From an uncultured Gammaproteobacteria bacterium (lineage in GTDB: Bacteria > Pseudomonadota > Gammaproteobacteria > Pseudomonadales > Azotimanducaceae_A), in contig CAJWZG010000040.1 in NCBI GenBank assembly GCA_913049565.1, positions 1-15,461 on the forward strand: a stretch of DNA of 15,461 bases. Reading direction: 5' to 3'. Positions 2,742-10,447 of the stretch are shown piece by piece (the stretch's first letter is position 1; each line of letters opens with the position of its first letter). The translations under genes were made by a program, and so were the position numbers. The notes under the pieces were generated by a model. The model saw only the letters and a program-made list of their open reading frames with translations. It had not been told where the DNA came from and ran no database searches.

Positions 2742-3797
<1,056 letters not shown>

Positions 3798-3800
3798 GGC

Positions 3801-5321
3801 CTAAGCCTGCACTGCGGGTATTCGCTCGGCGATTTTCGCTGACCAGATTTTCGGGCCTTCGATGTGCACCGATTCACCATTGGCATCGACGCTAACCGTA
3901 ACGGGCATATCGTTGACCTCAAACTCGTAGATGGCCTCCATGCCCAATTCCGGAAACGCGAGCAACGTTGAGCCGGTAATCGCCTTAGCCACAAGATAGG
4001 CAGCTCCGCCTACCGCGATCATCGACACGGCTCGGTTATCACGAATTGCGTCGATGGCCACCTTGCCGCGCTCTGCCTTGCCGATCATGCCTAACAGACC
4101 TGTTTGCTCGAGCATGGTTCGCGTGAACTTATCCATTCGAGTGGCCGTTGTCGGCCCAGCTGGACCCACTACTTCTTCTCTGACTGGGTCAACCGGGCCG
4201 ACGTAATAGATCACTCGATTGGTGAAATCGACGGGCAGTTCCTCACCTTTGTAGATCATATCCACCAGTTTTTTGTGCGCTGCATCTCGCCCAGTCAGCA
4301 TCTTTCCTGAGAGTAAGAGCGTGTCACCAGATTTCCACGTCTGCGTCTCTTCTGGCGTGAGTGTGTTCAAATTTACTCGCTTCACATCATCACCAAGCTC
4401 AAACTCGATATCAGGCCACTCGGCTAAATCCGGCGGCGTAAATTGAGCGGGTCCAGAACCATCTAACGTAAAATGCACATGCCGTGTGGCGCTGCAGTTG
4501 GGAATGATAGCGACAGGTTTGTTCGCAGCATGGGTTGGATATTCCTTTAACTTCACGTCAAGCACCGTGGTCAAGCCACCCAGGCCTTGCGCCCCAATAC
4601 CCAGCGCGTTCACTTTCTCGAAGAGCTCCATTCGCAGCTCTTCCGCTGCGTCAGACGAACCATCGGCTTGCAGCTCGTGCATGTTCAACGGCTCCATCAG
4701 CGACTCTTTGGCAAGTAACATGGCCTTTTCTGGTGTGCCTCCGATACCCACTCCCAAAATACCCGGCGGGCACCAGCCGGCTCCCATAGTGGGCACTACG
4801 CTTAAAATCCAATCCACCACAGAGTCTGACGGGTTGAGCATGGCAAATTTGGCTTTTGCCTCACTGCCGCCACCCTTGGCCGCCACTTCAATTTCCACCT
4901 TGTCGCCAGCGACGATCTTCGTGTGTACCACTGCTGGGGTGTTGTCCTTGGTATTGGCACGCGCACCGTTAGGATCCGTCAGCACCGAACCACGCAGTAC
5001 GTTGTCTGGGTGCGTGTAGCCACGCCGCACCCCTTCATTGATCATGTCTTCAAACGCCATATCGGCGTCCCACTGCACATCCATACCTACAGAGACCAGT
5101 ACGTTGACGATACCGGTGTCTTGGCAAATAGGGCGCTTGCCAATAGCGCACATGCGTGAATTGACCAGCACCTGTGTTAGCGCAGCCTTAGCAGCCGGGG
5201 ACTCTTCTTGCTCCCATGCCCCACGCATCGCTCGAATGAAATCGGTTGGGTGGTAATAAGAAATGAACTGCAGTGCGTCAGCAACGCTCTGAATCAGATC
5301 TTCTTGCTTGATTACAGTCAT
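3801..5321 (-). CDS. Class I (iron-sulfur) fumarate hydratase
   Basis: A 506-residue cytosolic [4Fe-4S] hydro-lyase of the FumA/FumB class, expected to interconvert fumarate and L-malate. The three cluster cysteines are in the expected places: Cys66 (RPICQDTG), Cys184 (AGWCPPG) and Cys276 (IIPNCSATRH). The alpha- and beta-type halves are fused, as in FumA. Other marks are TKDNTPAVVH, KGGGSEAK and GPAGPTTATRMD. The ATG at 5321 follows GGAG. It is the last gene of a three-gene run, 29 bases after the partner of the UGSC selenoprotein, an unusual setting for a TCA-cycle enzyme. Class I relatives also include tartrate dehydratase and enzymes hydrating mesaconate, so a related C4/C5 dicarboxylate substrate cannot be excluded. 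Such clusters are oxygen-sensitive. Confidence 0.93.
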   Translation of the reverse strand: MTVIKQEDLIQSVADALQFISYYHPTDFIRAMRGAWEQEESPAAKAALTQVLVNSRMCAIGKRPICQDTGIVNVLVSVGMDVQWDADMAFEDMINEGVRRGYTHPDNVLRGSVLTDPNGARANTKDNTPAVVHTKIVAGDKVEIEVAAKGGGSEAKAKFAMLNPSDSVVDWILSVVPTMGAGWCPPGILGVGIGGTPEKAMLLAKESLMEPLNMHELQADGSSDAAEELRMELFEKVNALGIGAQGLGGLTTVLDVKLKEYPTHAANKPVAIIPNCSATRHVHFTLDGSGPAQFTPPDLAEWPDIEFELGDDVKRVNLNTLTPEETQTWKSGDTLLLSGKMLTGRDAAHKKLVDMIYKGEELPVDFTNRVIYYVGPVDPVREEVVGPAGPTTATRMDKFTRTMLEQTGLLGMIGKAERGKVAIDAIRDNRAVSMIAVGGAAYLVAKAITGSTLLAFPELGMEAIYEFEVNDMPVTVSVDANGESVHIEGPKIWSAKIAERIPAVQA

Positions 5322-5350: not shown

Positions 5351-6424
5351 TTAGGCGTCACCTAAACGCGGAATTTCACAGTATAGGTCGAGCTCAACTC
5401 GTTGGCTAACATAGCTGTTTTGATGGGCCCCAGCGCACCAAGACGGCATCACCATCGAGTACAAACCGCTGCCGCCTGCCATTAGCAGCAAAATGTCTTC
5501 AGGCCGGGCGAAGCAGCGATAGCTTTCGCCTTTAATGCGTTCAGCGAAACCTGCTGCAAAGTATTCCAGCTGTTGAGTTGGGTAATGGGTTAGCTCCCAC
5601 AGGCGCTGCAAGATCATGCTCCGATCTAACCCTGCGTCTGCGAGTATCTTCGCATGCTCAGGATTGAGCACGACCACCGCGCTGCCACTCGTCAGCACGG
5701 CATTGTTAGTCGCCATGTTCGCTAAACCAATGGCTAACACTTCAAGTAGCTTTTGCGCATCTTGCGGGTCATCGGCATCGCCACTGTAAATCACCGAGTG
5801 TGGTGCCTCAGCACCAATCACGGTGACCACCGTATCCTCGGCATCAAACCCTAGGTCTTGGTGCATAGGGGCAAATGGAGAGTGCTCTTCATCTTCGCCA
5901 AGACAGTAGGTGAATTTGCCCGGATGCCCCAGCAAGGCCATATCCGATTCGCCAGCCTTAGCGCCTCCGATGTTGATCATGCACAGCCTCAACGCGCGTC
6001 CGATGCTGGCGTTCGCACGATGCCCGGGACCTAACGCGCCAAATCCGCTGGCAATTGGCCCACAACTTAGCCGACCTGGACCATTCACAATGATCAACGG
6101 AGCTGTACAGTGGGTAGTCGATTGCATTTGGGCGAGATCAAATGCGTCTTGCAAGACCGCCTGAACCGAGGCGATAACGACGGGCATATACTCTGGTAAA
6201 CATCCCGCCATGACAGCCGCGATGGCGACTTTTTCAATGGTGGCAACCCCTCCAGCTGGACCCATAACGCCCAGTCGCATATCGGGATCCTGTCCGCTGG
6301 CCAAAACCATGTTCGCTACTCGATCTGCTGTTGGTATCACCACGGGCAGCCCATCGGTCATGCCGGCTCTATGTAGGACCTCCAACGCCGCCGATTCATC
6401 TGCGGCCTGCATCCACTCAGACAT
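5351..6424 (-). CDS. Uncharacterised partner protein of the UGSC selenoprotein
   Basis: A 357-residue protein of a conserved family with no function that I know. Recognisable family-style segments are MTDGLPVVIPT (22-32), a Gly-rich GVMGPAGGVATIEK (52-65), AAVMAGCLPEYMPVV (69-83) with Cys75, PLIIVNGP (109-116), GFGALGPGHRANASIGRALR (128-147) and GHPGKFTYC (166-174) followed by an acidic GEDEEHSPF. Eight cysteines are visible (75, 106, 121, 148, 174, 304, 330, 349). No signal peptide or transmembrane helix was seen, so it is probably cytosolic. The start ATG overlaps the end of the selenoprotein gene by 8 bases (ATGTCTGA), which implies translational coupling and a shared job, probably a two-subunit enzyme. 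The many Gly- and Asn-rich conserved segments suggest an active site, but the chemistry is unknown. Confidence 0.88.
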   Translation of the reverse strand: MSEWMQAADESAALEVLHRAGMTDGLPVVIPTADRVANMVLASGQDPDMRLGVMGPAGGVATIEKVAIAAVMAGCLPEYMPVVIASVQAVLQDAFDLAQMQSTTHCTAPLIIVNGPGRLSCGPIASGFGALGPGHRANASIGRALRLCMINIGGAKAGESDMALLGHPGKFTYCLGEDEEHSPFAPMHQDLGFDAEDTVVTVIGAEAPHSVIYSGDADDPQDAQKLLEVLAIGLANMATNNAVLTSGSAVVVLNPEHAKILADAGLDRSMILQRLWELTHYPTQQLEYFAAGFAERIKGESYRCFARPEDILLLMAGGSGLYSMVMPSWCAGAHQNSYVSQRVELDLYCEIPRLGDA

Positions 6425-6947
6425 GCTTCAGCTGTTCGATAATCAGCGGGGCCATGCGCATGGACACTTCTCGCAAACGGTCTTGCCCGGTGCCTGCGAG
6501 CGGATGCGGCAGTTTTACGCGAGGCACCCCGGGCATGCCGAGGCTATTGGCGGTGAAATCGCCTTGTGGCCAAAAATCTTCTGTTACCAAAGCCACGGAG
6601 GGAATGCCTCGCCTTGCTGTATTTATGCCGTCACGCACGGTGCCGGTTGTACAGCTGCCTCAGTGGCCGTATGCCGCGATCACGGCATCACATTGGGACT
6701 GTATCTCGTCAAGCATGTCATCTGGTGCAGCAACTGACGCATTACCTTTATTCCAAACACGCACCTCTATTCCTTCGATGATTTGCTCAAGTTCTCCGCC
6801 AATGTGACGCAAAAAATTCTCTGAGTCTGGAAATCCGTTCGCGAGCAGTCCGACAACCGGCCTTTGTTGTGCAGCCAAATCAATGCCTAGCGTATAGGGT
6901 TCCGCTGGAATAGCGCGCTCGCCCAGCGGGCTGTGAAATTCAATCAT
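6417..6947 (-). CDS. UGSC family selenoprotein (in-frame TGA read as selenocysteine)
   Basis: One gene of 176 residues interrupted by an in-frame TGA at 6660-6662, residue 96. The reading frame is the same on both sides, and the junction reads YGH-[Sec]-GSCTTGTVRDGI, so the TGA is the Sec of the UGSC motif with Cys99 as its likely redox partner. Upstream it has VVGLLANGFPDSENF (31-45) and the acidic DMLDEIQSQCDAVIAAYG. Downstream it has RRGIPSVALVTEDF, LGMPGVPRVKLPHPL and a C-terminal helix. Both halves match the family as I remember it, and many relatives carry Cys in place of Sec. The start is the ATG at 6947, after GGGAGGA. The true stop is the TGA at 6417-6419, overlapping the next gene. 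It is probably a cytosolic redox or reductase-type catalytic subunit; the substrate is unknown. No Sec-machinery gene lies in this window. Confidence 0.9.
6616..6659 (-). promoter_or_regulatory. Predicted bacterial SECIS hairpin
   Basis: Read on the minus strand just after the Sec codon. The outer stem is GCTGTA (6655-6650) with TACAGC (6621-6616), 6 perfect pairs. After an A-rich internal loop comes CCG (6646-6644) with CGG (6630-6628), a single G-A mismatch, and CAC (6642-6640) with GTG (6634-6632). These close a five-base loop CGTGC (6639-6635) containing a GU. The loop starts about 20 bases after the TGA. The position just 3' of UGA inside the coding region and the G/U in the apical loop fit the known bacterial SECIS bound by SelB. 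The fold was made by hand; no energy was computed. Confidence 0.72.
6660..6662 (-). other. Selenocysteine codon (TGA)
   Basis: This TGA is in frame with the start at 6947 and the stop at 6417 and encodes residue 96. It directly precedes codons for Gly-Ser-Cys-Thr, giving the UGSC motif. Coding similarity to the family on both sides argues against a real stop or a sequencing error. Confidence 0.88.
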
Positions 6948-7121
6948 TAGTCCTCCCAATCAAAGAACACTGGAAAAAAAATACACCTCGCTCTAGTGTT
7001 TTGGTGTACAGCCTAAAACAGATGGGTAGACAGTAGAATAAAAAGTACTTGCGAGCTACCTGCCGCCACTGTCCAAGAAAACGGCGACTTGGTTTCGATC
7101 CCGCAAAAAGGACACGATTGA
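6948..7121. promoter_or_regulatory. Divergent intergenic region between the selenoprotein operon and the dipeptidase gene
   Basis: This 174-base gap must hold promoters for both the selenoprotein operon (minus) and the M19 gene (plus). It is AT-rich compared with the flanking genes, with an A-run at 6973-6981. A TAGAAT at 7034-7039 resembles a -10 box for the plus-strand gene, but no good -35 lies at 16-18 bases upstream. Ribosome sites are clear: GGGAGGA for the minus gene (about 6951-6957) and AAAGGA for the plus gene (about 7107-7112). No operator or riboswitch could be supported. Confidence 0.4.
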
Positions 7122-8415: not shown

Positions 8416-9128
8416 CCGTACACGCCAACCGCTGCCTGAACGCGCTCAGTGTAGTCCTTGAAATGCGGGTAATCTTTAGCCACATGAGTGATCCATGTGG
8501 GCGGTCGCTGGTCGTATACGCCCGCCATAAAGCTCGCAATTGTGAAATCAAATACGCAGGGCTGTGCGGCAAATAGGAAACCCTCGCCGTTGACCGCGTC
8601 TTGCAGCGCCTGCAGGTCGCGGCGAGCGAAAGCCTCTTGTTCTTGCAGCGAATGACGTCCCAGCCCCTGCAAGTGATAGGTTTGCTGCATTTGCTTACGC
8701 GCTTGTCTTGCGACAAAACCTCGTAGCGGTTTAGGGGCGATGTGGAAAAAACCTTCCACAATGTTCGGAAACCACTCGTCATCTAGCCAACGGCTGGCCA
8801 CCATAATCCAATAGAGGTGATCATCCATAAAGCGCGAAATGGAGGTTCCAAACGCACGGTCCCTCGCCCTAAGACCCGCGTAAACGTGACCTTGGGTAAT
8901 CGAGTCAATATGCTGGGTGATCAGCTCTGAATCCGGGATTTTTACTCCGTCACTAAGCAGGTAGGGCAGTTTACCCTTGGGAGCTTTGCGCGGATCCGTC
9001 TCCACTGCCATATCGAATTTTAAGCCTAGCTGGGTCATCAGCATTTCGGCTTTCAAGCAAAAAGGACTGACGTTTTGCAACCCAAAGGCACCGCCTAGGG
9101 TGACTAAGACAAGTTTTGGTTGATCCAT
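8400..9128 (-). CDS. Glutathione S-transferase family protein, FAX/metaxin-like
   Basis: A 242-residue two-domain GST-fold protein. The thioredoxin-like N-domain shows VSPFCLKAEML (20-30), KGKLPYL with the cis-proline Pro55, and IPDSELITQHI (64-74), where the DSE segment would bind the glutathione gamma-glutamyl group. The SPFCxK and KGKLP pattern is that of the FAX (failed axon connections) and metaxin-like branch, not of the classical Tyr or Ser classes. A helical C-domain with many aromatic residues follows. It is probably cytosolic; the substrate is unknown. The ATG at 9128 follows GGAGG. It is the last of three minus-strand genes, 104 bases after the CoA-transferase, a gap with no recognisable gene or promoter. 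Its 3' end lies within a hairpin shared with the convergent dipeptidase gene. Confidence 0.87.
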   Translation of the reverse strand: MDQPKLVLVTLGGAFGLQNVSPFCLKAEMLMTQLGLKFDMAVETDPRKAPKGKLPYLLSDGVKIPDSELITQHIDSITQGHVYAGLRARDRAFGTSISRFMDDHLYWIMVASRWLDDEWFPNIVEGFFHIAPKPLRGFVARQARKQMQQTYHLQGLGRHSLQEQEAFARRDLQALQDAVNGEGFLFAAQPCVFDFTIASFMAGVYDQRPPTWITHVAKDYPHFKDYTERVQAAVGVYGRVTE

Positions 9129-9232
9129 GGTGCCTCCGCATCACTGGTCATTGCTAGCCTGCAAAAAACTTAACATAGTCATTCCATAAGCGCGGCATCT
9201 CAAATGCGCAATGGCTCACGCCCAGAAGAATT

Positions 9233-10447
9233 TTAGTCCGGGGTTGAGGGGCTACCGTCAACGATGATGCCCGCACTGAGCAAGCTCTGGACATAAGACT
9301 CTTCAAAATCCAACTCGCGCAGCACGGCTAAACTGTCGGCACCGATGTCGGGGGCTCGCCGCGGAGCCTTCTTAGGCTCACCTACCATGTTGATTGGACT
9401 AGAGACCGTAAGATCGAAATCTCCTTGGCTATCGCCGGTCTCCACAATAATGCCGGCAGCCCGCATTTGCTCATCGGCAAGCACCTCACTCATGGTTTGA
9501 ACCTTCGCGTAGGTAATACCCTGCTCATCGAGGCGTCTGGCTGCGTCCTCATAGTTCATCTGAGCAAACGCATCACTGATCATTTGCTGCAGTAAATCGC
9601 GATTACGCATGGCTTGGCGAATATCGCTGAAACGCTCATCCTCAAGCCAATCAGGATGCTGTAACGCCTCACATAGCTGCGGATACTCCCGCTGGGTGTT
9701 GATCATGGTCAGCACGAGGTAACTGCCATCAGCACAGCCGTAGGGCGCACTTAGAGGGTTCACCCAGCCTACTTTTTGTCGATGTTCCGCCAAGTCATTG
9801 CCTGCGACCACGCCCTGTAATGCCATACCGTTAGCCCAAACCCCGTTTGCCGCCAGTGATGTACTGACATGGCAGCCTTTGCCGGTTCGCTCGCGTTTGT
9901 AAAGACCGCTCATAATAGCGCCAAATAAAGCCGTCGCCGTTGAGTGATCGCCCATCCCGGGCGCTGGCATCAACGGGGTTTGATCAGGGTCACGGATAAA
10001 CTCCATCATGCCGGATCGAGCCCACCACCCCGTCACGTCGAAGGCACGTCGATCAGCCTCAGGCCCCTCATCGCCGTAACCGGTGATGTGTGCATAGACC
10101 AATCGGGGGTTGATCGCCTGGAGCGTGGGGAAGGTTATCTGGTAGCGTTCAAGCTGAGGTTGCATCATATTGGTCGTCATAACGTCGGCCTTGGCGATCA
10201 GCTTATGCATCAGTTCCTGACCTGCATCCTTGGTCAAATCTAGCGCCAGCGACTGCTTATTGCGCGAGGTCAGCAGCCAGTGATACGGCACCGGATAACG
10301 TCCAACGAGCCCTCGGTAACCGTCACCGCTAGGCGGCTCGATCTTAATGACCTTGGCACCAAAGTCCCCTAGCATGGTTGCTGCGCCTGGACCTGCCAAA
10401 AACGTCGCAGCATCTACGACGACAATGTCCTCTAAGAAATATTCCAT
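9233..10447 (-). CDS. CaiB/BaiF family class III CoA-transferase, second copy
   Basis: A 404-residue class III CoA-transferase. Family segments are VVDAATFLAGPGAATMLGDF near the N-terminus, GAKVIKIEPPSGDGYRG, SRNKQSLALDLTK, LVYAHITGYGDEGP and the Gly-rich loop ending in GMGDHSTA. The Asp in that last motif (residue 167 from the ATG) aligns by eye with the catalytic aspartate of formyl-CoA transferase. The ATG at 10447 lies well placed behind a GGAGGAGGG ribosome site; the GTG just before it is less likely. It differs strongly from the CoA-transferase at 1544, so the two are not a recent duplication. It lies about 46 bases after the CPXCG gene and upstream of the FAX-like GST. The substrate is unknown. 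Confidence 0.92.
   Translation of the reverse strand: MEYFLEDIVVVDAATFLAGPGAATMLGDFGAKVIKIEPPSGDGYRGLVGRYPVPYHWLLTSRNKQSLALDLTKDAGQELMHKLIAKADVMTTNMMQPQLERYQITFPTLQAINPRLVYAHITGYGDEGPEADRRAFDVTGWWARSGMMEFIRDPDQTPLMPAPGMGDHSTATALFGAIMSGLYKRERTGKGCHVSTSLAANGVWANGMALQGVVAGNDLAEHRQKVGWVNPLSAPYGCADGSYLVLTMINTQREYPQLCEALQHPDWLEDERFSDIRQAMRNRDLLQQMISDAFAQMNYEDAARRLDEQGITYAKVQTMSEVLADEQMRAAGIIVETGDSQGDFDLTVSSPINMVGEPKKAPRRAPDIGADSLAVLRELDFEESYVQSLLSAGIIVDGSPSTPD

Follow-up and report, generated by a model that had tools for sequence, protein, structure and literature searches.

A UGSC-family selenoprotein gene with an in-frame TGA and its overlapping partner gene NB, a possible two-subunit reductase

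The minus strand of the window, by which we mean the whole stretch of 15,461 nucleotides that was analysed, carries a gene that, as far as sequence can show, encodes with near certainty a real UGSC-family selenoprotein. Its product very probably works together with NB, the product of the overlapping gene. The gene is a further member of a selenoprotein family known since 2008, and what is added to that family here is the NB partner, clusters with sel genes, a predicted fold and a possible tie to GrdB/PrdB; the excerpts of the UGSC literature consulted hold no statement on any of these four points. The features are as follows.

6417..6947, minus strand: UGSC-family selenoprotein gene, 176 residues, selenocysteine (Sec) at residue 96
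6660..6662, minus strand: TGA almost certainly read as selenocysteine, the U of U-G-S-C; TGA in 77/77 aligned genes, Cys in homologues
6952..6957, minus strand: ribosome-binding site GGGAGG, 4 bases 5' of the UGSC ATG, from sequence
6616..6655, minus strand: SECIS-like hairpin of bacterial type, invariant core at about 6628-6646 (CCG.CAC[CGUGC]GUG.CGG); bases of codons 102-106 invariant in 77 genes
5351..6424, minus strand: NB, partner protein with 357 residues, from an unnamed family; adjoins UGSC in 76/76 testable loci and in 13/13 UGSC-matching plasmid records; no Pfam or NCBIfam match

A sequence-only reading of this DNA had proposed that two short frames are one reading frame broken by the TGA at 6660-6662, and this was confirmed, as the frame reads through from 6947 to 6417 with a single internal TGA (6662-6660) and a final stop TGA at 6419-6417. 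Around residue 96 the protein reads ...AAYGH-U-GSCTTGTVRDG.... The good ribosome site claimed for the start is present as listed, and so is the 8-base overlap with the next gene, where the final stop (6417-6419) runs into the NB ATG (6424-6422). Automated annotation had been expected to split the gene, and the mechanical list of open frames does give two pieces, 6660-6959 from a TTG start and 6417-6638 from a GTG start.

The same reading took GH-[TGA]-GSCTTG for the UGSC motif with family-like sequence on both sides, and here the joined protein agrees with it, matching the Pfam UGSC model (PF24696) across the TGA from residue 26 to 174 with 150.7 bits (cut-off 25; E 5.7e-44). The sole NCBIfam match at E 0.001 was NF041046 (UGSC), with 108.7 bits, which is below its equivalog cut-off of 125. 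As both halves belong to one Pfam family and the same in-frame TGA is found in 76 of 80 related loci, the frame is not a product of chance. A protein search with UGSC gave 310 relatives, and 22 of the 120 listed were inspected; the full-length ones among these hold Cys at the Sec site, except P0002 with Trp, perhaps another translation of TGA, and similarity continues downstream of the TGA. Five relatives (P0017, P0018, P0047, P0098 and P0109) are shorter and stop right at the Sec site, with ...YGH as their last residues, and P0013 diverges from the family after the N-terminal half. The Sec/Cys-Gly-Ser-Cys columns are invariant in 57 sequences (TGA read as C), a set gathered as UGSC matches with P0002 excluded. 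In a phylum-wide sample UGSC was detected in 5 of 398 genomes, the centre genome counted.

The 2008 Global Ocean Sampling survey lists the "UGSC-containing protein" among the most abundant selenoproteins, with 255 sequences (PMC2398784), and a 2026 review describes the functions of UGSC and similar selenoproteins as largely uncharacterised (PMC13188914); the earlier description of UGSC as a selenoprotein family from marine metagenomes whose reaction is unknown is in line with both.

With NB as query we fetched 80 related loci, from gammaproteobacterial and similar MAGs including the OM182 and K189A clades and from strain HTCC2143, whose locus L023 carries both genes. These were the best 80 of 343 confirmed candidates from named genomes, hence the set consists of close kin. 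An in-frame GH-TGA-GSC lies just upstream of NB in 76 of them, while in the other four (L033, L045, L068 and L069) the contig runs for only 13 to 232 bases beyond the start of NB and so stops short of the Sec site. No Cys codon was found at the Sec site in the 76 related loci with the site covered, and the TGA is invariant in the 77 aligned genes, that is, the window and these 76. Codons 102-106 were GGC, ACC, GTG and GAC in 77/77 genes at their positions and CGT in all 76 genes with Arg, though the same amino acids use many codons elsewhere in the same genes. The mean normalised codon entropy was 0.18 for the seven conserved sites in 100-107 versus 0.88 for 52 other conserved sites (Mann-Whitney p 4e-5). 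This synonymous-site constraint is the footprint of an RNA element at the position expected of a bacterial SECIS. The window hairpin is no more stable than its shuffles (z 0.03), so the evidence for the SECIS is conservation and not energy. A different sequence is conserved in 15 UGSC genes from other branches, and it folds into a hairpin at about the same distance.

For the selenocysteine machinery we searched 24 genomes from 25 related loci, which are relatives and not the window's own genome. They hold 52 UGSC matches over the cut-off, all with an internal TGA (51 with one TGA, one with TGA and TAG); two sub-threshold matches that lack a TGA were not counted. The selB gene was over the cut-off in 20/24 and tRNA-Sec in 21/24, with selB below it in G001, G002, G006 and G021 and tRNA-Sec in G001, G006 and G021, assemblies of unstated completeness. 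Further, in an order sample of 194 genomes from the order of G010, UGSC was over the cut-off in 15, 14 of them with one TGA and one (G464) without a stop; G477, G498 and G517, with sub-threshold matches only, were left out of this count. The 26 order-sample genomes with selB include all 14 with the TGA type of UGSC and exclude G464, thus 14/14 versus 12/180 of the others (Fisher p 1.3e-14, a value that is too small owing to shared ancestry), and the co-occurrence of UGSC(TGA) with selB is without exception in this sample.

The partner NB had 7,049 relatives among 8,000 candidates scored. Searches of the window NB against Pfam and NCBIfam gave no match, and for 38 aligned NB members the NCBIfam search turned up no more than isolated matches, with E 0.04 or worse. 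Beyond the testable related loci, in all 76 of which the two genes adjoin, an NB relative of 35-39% identity stands beside UGSC in 13 of 15 loci of other branches (L081-L094 and L098, with motifs such as ALADUGSC); in L091 and L094 the contig ends before the expected place of NB. Gene order differs between the branches, with NB first in the other-branch loci and UGSC first in the branch of the window. All 13 plasmid records with a UGSC match have NB within about 200 bases, and their hosts are Haloarchaea, Actinomycetota and Alpha- and Betaproteobacteria. Pairs of the Cys type occur too, for example in Roseovarius and Natrinema. In Variovorax boronicumulans a single CDS holds both UGSC and NB; a fusion of UGSC with an "Unknown_1" domain was reported in the 2008 survey (PMC2398784), and this domain may be NB. 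The pairing has exceptions: 11 of 24 NB-bearing plasmid records gave no UGSC by tblastn with P0070, among them Haladaptatus, in which no UGSC is annotated beside NB. In Sporomusa (L103 7311-9035) and Vibrio europaeus (L104 7392-9077) NB forms the later portion of a longer protein, and in Sporomusa it is preceded by a degenerate UGSC-like part in which Met occupies the Sec site (E 6.5e-4). Aconitase X genes lie near NB in both.

Invariant across the 38 NB sequences are one Cys only (C75), several Arg, Lys170 and Glu177. The predicted structure of NB has a pLDDT of 85.9, and Foldseek ranks class I fumarases first, at low quality; a profile comparison of NB with class I fumarase gave no support for kinship. 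As an observation on gene order, a class I Fe-S fumarase gene lies at 3801-5321 of the window (minus strand), 29 bases past NB, and a fumarase gene is near NB in 22 relatives too. Beyond it in the window is trxB (2766-3797), which is near NB in 17 relatives as well; we treat the trxB near NB in this branch as synteny.

The genes selA, selB and selC are often joined in one operon (PMC5330540). Some UGSC-NB pairs lie close to sel genes. UGSC is within 5 kb of selB in 4 of the 14 order-sample genomes with the TGA type (G456, G557, G576 and G579). The sel-cluster regions were chosen because UGSC had been placed near selB, and four of them (L177-L180) cluster NB, UGSC, selA, selB and tRNA-Sec. In L177 and L179 these genes, the UGSC with TGA, occupy about 5.6 kb, and in L178 and L180 a ketoacyl-synthase-like gene is present as well; L180 has in addition selD and, between UGSC and selD (9074-9400), a thioredoxin-like gene that lacks the usual CxxC. 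The genes of L181 are selB, NB and UGSC, and in L182-L184, with UGSC of the window's branch, selA and selB lie no farther than about 8 to 13 kb from the pair. Plasmid pFER4 of Paracoccus ferrooxidans (L188 1-22000, corresponding to 1315000-1337000) has a 20-kb stretch that holds trxB, selA, UGSC, NB and selB, with UGSC annotated as two hypothetical pieces and no tRNA-Sec found in the stretch. An ISPme2 copy stands at either end of it, the two being inverted and sharing 99.8% identity over 854 bases, and the arrangement resembles a composite mobile island that carries a selenoprotein module.

For the link to thioredoxin we used a wide-flank set of 20 UGSC loci outside the window's branch (L101, L102, L106-L110, L141, L144-L146, L177-L181 and L185-L188). 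The set is non-random, with L177-L181 chosen for selB and L185 and L187 for an absent TGA; on one side L185 extends for no more than some 3 kb, and annotation is lacking for L141 and L146. By tblastn, a trxB of at least 43% identity to a reference was present in 5 of the 20, within about 3 kb of the pair in L102, L106 (with trxA), L107 and L187 and at about 9 kb in L188. Weaker TrxB-like matches were seen in L110 (159.5 bits versus a TrxB model cut-off of 343) and L146, and tblastn found no trxB in the other 13 loci. The annotated plasmid neighbours of UGSC and NB vary by host and include CoA transferases, TRAP and tripartite carboxylate transporters and lyases; these neighbourhoods point to small carboxylic acids as substrate. 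Genes like ComA (phosphosulfolactate synthase family) lie near the pair in a haloarchaeon (L101 5488-5955) and on an Arthrobacter plasmid (L106 4660-5448), a possible substrate hint.

The AlphaFold2 model of UGSC has a pLDDT of 96.1, with strands alternating with helices and Sec96 beginning the helix 97-112. Structure comparison matched it to broad folds of the flavodoxin, receiver and Rossmann types, and we describe the predicted fold as flavodoxin-like. The thioredoxin fold has the order beta-alpha-beta-alpha-beta-beta-alpha, with two strands in a row, which the strand/helix alternation throughout the model, a prediction and not a solved structure, does not fit. The prediction speaks against the expectation of 2008, when a thioredoxin-like fold and possible redox activity were suggested for UGSC (PMC2398784).

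Profile alignment gave a further lead. With hhalign, UGSC aligned with marine PF07355 (UPxC) proteins Sec on Sec; two runs scored 35.1 and 34.9 (E 2e-4 for the single pair, probability 44-45%) and a third 32.8 (E 5e-4, probability 31%); the PF07355 profiles held 23 and then 19 sequences, from 30 loci of the same genomes. Among controls, 50 column shuffles reached at most 21.6 and the reversed profile 12.2, four unrelated families scored 16 to 21 against the UGSC profile, and NB against CoA-transferase, with no expected kinship, reached 26.8. One of the 19 PF07355 members matches the UGSC model (PF24696) at E 0.0033. The window protein gave no match to PF07355 at E up to 10 with the HMMER filters on; this model stops just before Sec and is without the UGSC-like half. 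The comparison is suggestive of, and not proof of, kinship between the Sec-bearing half of UGSC and GrdB/PrdB.

The in-frame TGA with its SECIS footprint, the steady NB pair and the tie to sel genes can be read from the sequences themselves; the chemistry that follows is a proposal. The best explanation of the whole, and in our judgement a fairly likely one, is a real UGSC selenoprotein that works together with NB, our best guess for the pair being a two-subunit reductase fed by thioredoxin. That the two form one enzyme we infer only tentatively. UGSC would be the small, flavodoxin-like alpha/beta subunit, its Sec-Gly-Ser-Cys pair predicted at a helix start, and NB would provide most of the substrate site. 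As nucleophile, Sec96 may attack a small substrate of the carboxylic-acid type at a polarised bond. Cys99 would resolve the Sec-Cys bond or Sec adduct that results, and thioredoxin with thioredoxin reductase would be the donor for its reduction. In its way of working UGSC would resemble the Sec subunits known from glycine and proline reductases, with a different partner protein and within marine bacteria that we take to be aerobic. Glycine and proline reductases carry out reductive cleavage with Sec subunits. Reductive cleavage by UGSC-NB is proposed because of this analogy (see also PMC13188914), and it is a possibility that we hold with reserve. Further, we speculate, with somewhat more doubt still, that UGSC-NB could be a so far unrecognised family of Sec (or Cys) reductases, with two subunits, thioredoxin as electron source and a distant kinship to glycine/proline reductase, by which marine gammaproteobacteria, actinobacteria and haloarchaea break a bond in small carboxylic acids, and that in some genomes it comes near to a self-contained module with selA, selB and tRNA-Sec (a single plasmid has it together with trxB, selA and selB, enclosed by IS copies). 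With a fixed partner, a likely electron donor and a fold predicted with confidence, UGSC passes from "function unknown" to a two-protein system open to expression and assay.

Other explanations were weighed against this one. Were the TGA a true stop, left by a decayed or split gene or by a sequencing error, the product would be a truncated protein; the three of 24 relatives' assemblies with neither selB nor tRNA-Sec over the cut-off (G001, G006, G021) and the ordinary stability of the hairpin could be read in this way. But the same TGA in 77/77 genes, the conservation of both sides, the synonymous constraint just after it and the presence of selB in 14/14 order-sample genomes with TGA-type UGSC make it hardly credible. 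More weight is due to a general thiol or peroxide oxidoreductase, with an antioxidant or repair role and not that of a catabolic reductase, for which trxB and the sel genes would only be the supply. Thiol-redox roles are common among Sec families, the survey's suggestion of a Trx-like fold with possible redox activity (PMC2398784) is in its favour, and the genes beyond NB in the window's branch are mixed; the predicted fold, however, is not thioredoxin-like, the invariant Arg, Lys170, Glu177 and Cys75 of NB suggest a specific ligand, and genes for catabolism and carboxylate transport are frequent among the annotated plasmid neighbours, hence we find this role rather unlikely.

Less probable again, and in our view improbable, is that UGSC-NB does not reduce an organic substrate but binds or transfers a metal, a metalloid or a sulfur/selenium species. 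Sec/Cys pairs bind soft metals, and the Paracoccus ferrooxidans stretch is also annotated with DsrE, TusA and cysteine-desulfurase genes, but in the annotated plasmid tables sulfur-trafficking genes were seen in this species only and no recurring metal-resistance genes were noticed.

Nothing essential sets the window protein apart from the UGSC family (PF24696; PMC2398784), with which it shares the model match, the UGSC motif, Sec by TGA and marine relatives, although it stays under the cut-off of NCBI's narrower naming model NF041046. The marine UPxC "PrdB-like" selenoproteins (PF07355) have a similar C-terminal half and occur in 19 of 20 related genomes searched; they differ in the motif, UPxC, and in the rarity of NB beside them, since just one of 30 fetched loci had NB at a distance of about 1.5 kb or less. 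In those loci (L111-L140) several copies of the UPxC proteins were seen in some genomes, the Pfam match again stopping just before Sec. GrdB of glycine/betaine/sarcosine reductase and PrdB of D-proline reductase have as partner a pyruvoyl-type proprotein, GrdE/PrdA. They differ from the present system in that the window UGSC has no direct PF07355 match and that their known partners are not recognised in NB, which has no Pfam match. They are alike in the UxxC at a matching place and, by a weak profile alignment, in a similar half, and glycine reductase is reduced by thioredoxin (PMC13188914), the donor that we propose for UGSC-NB.
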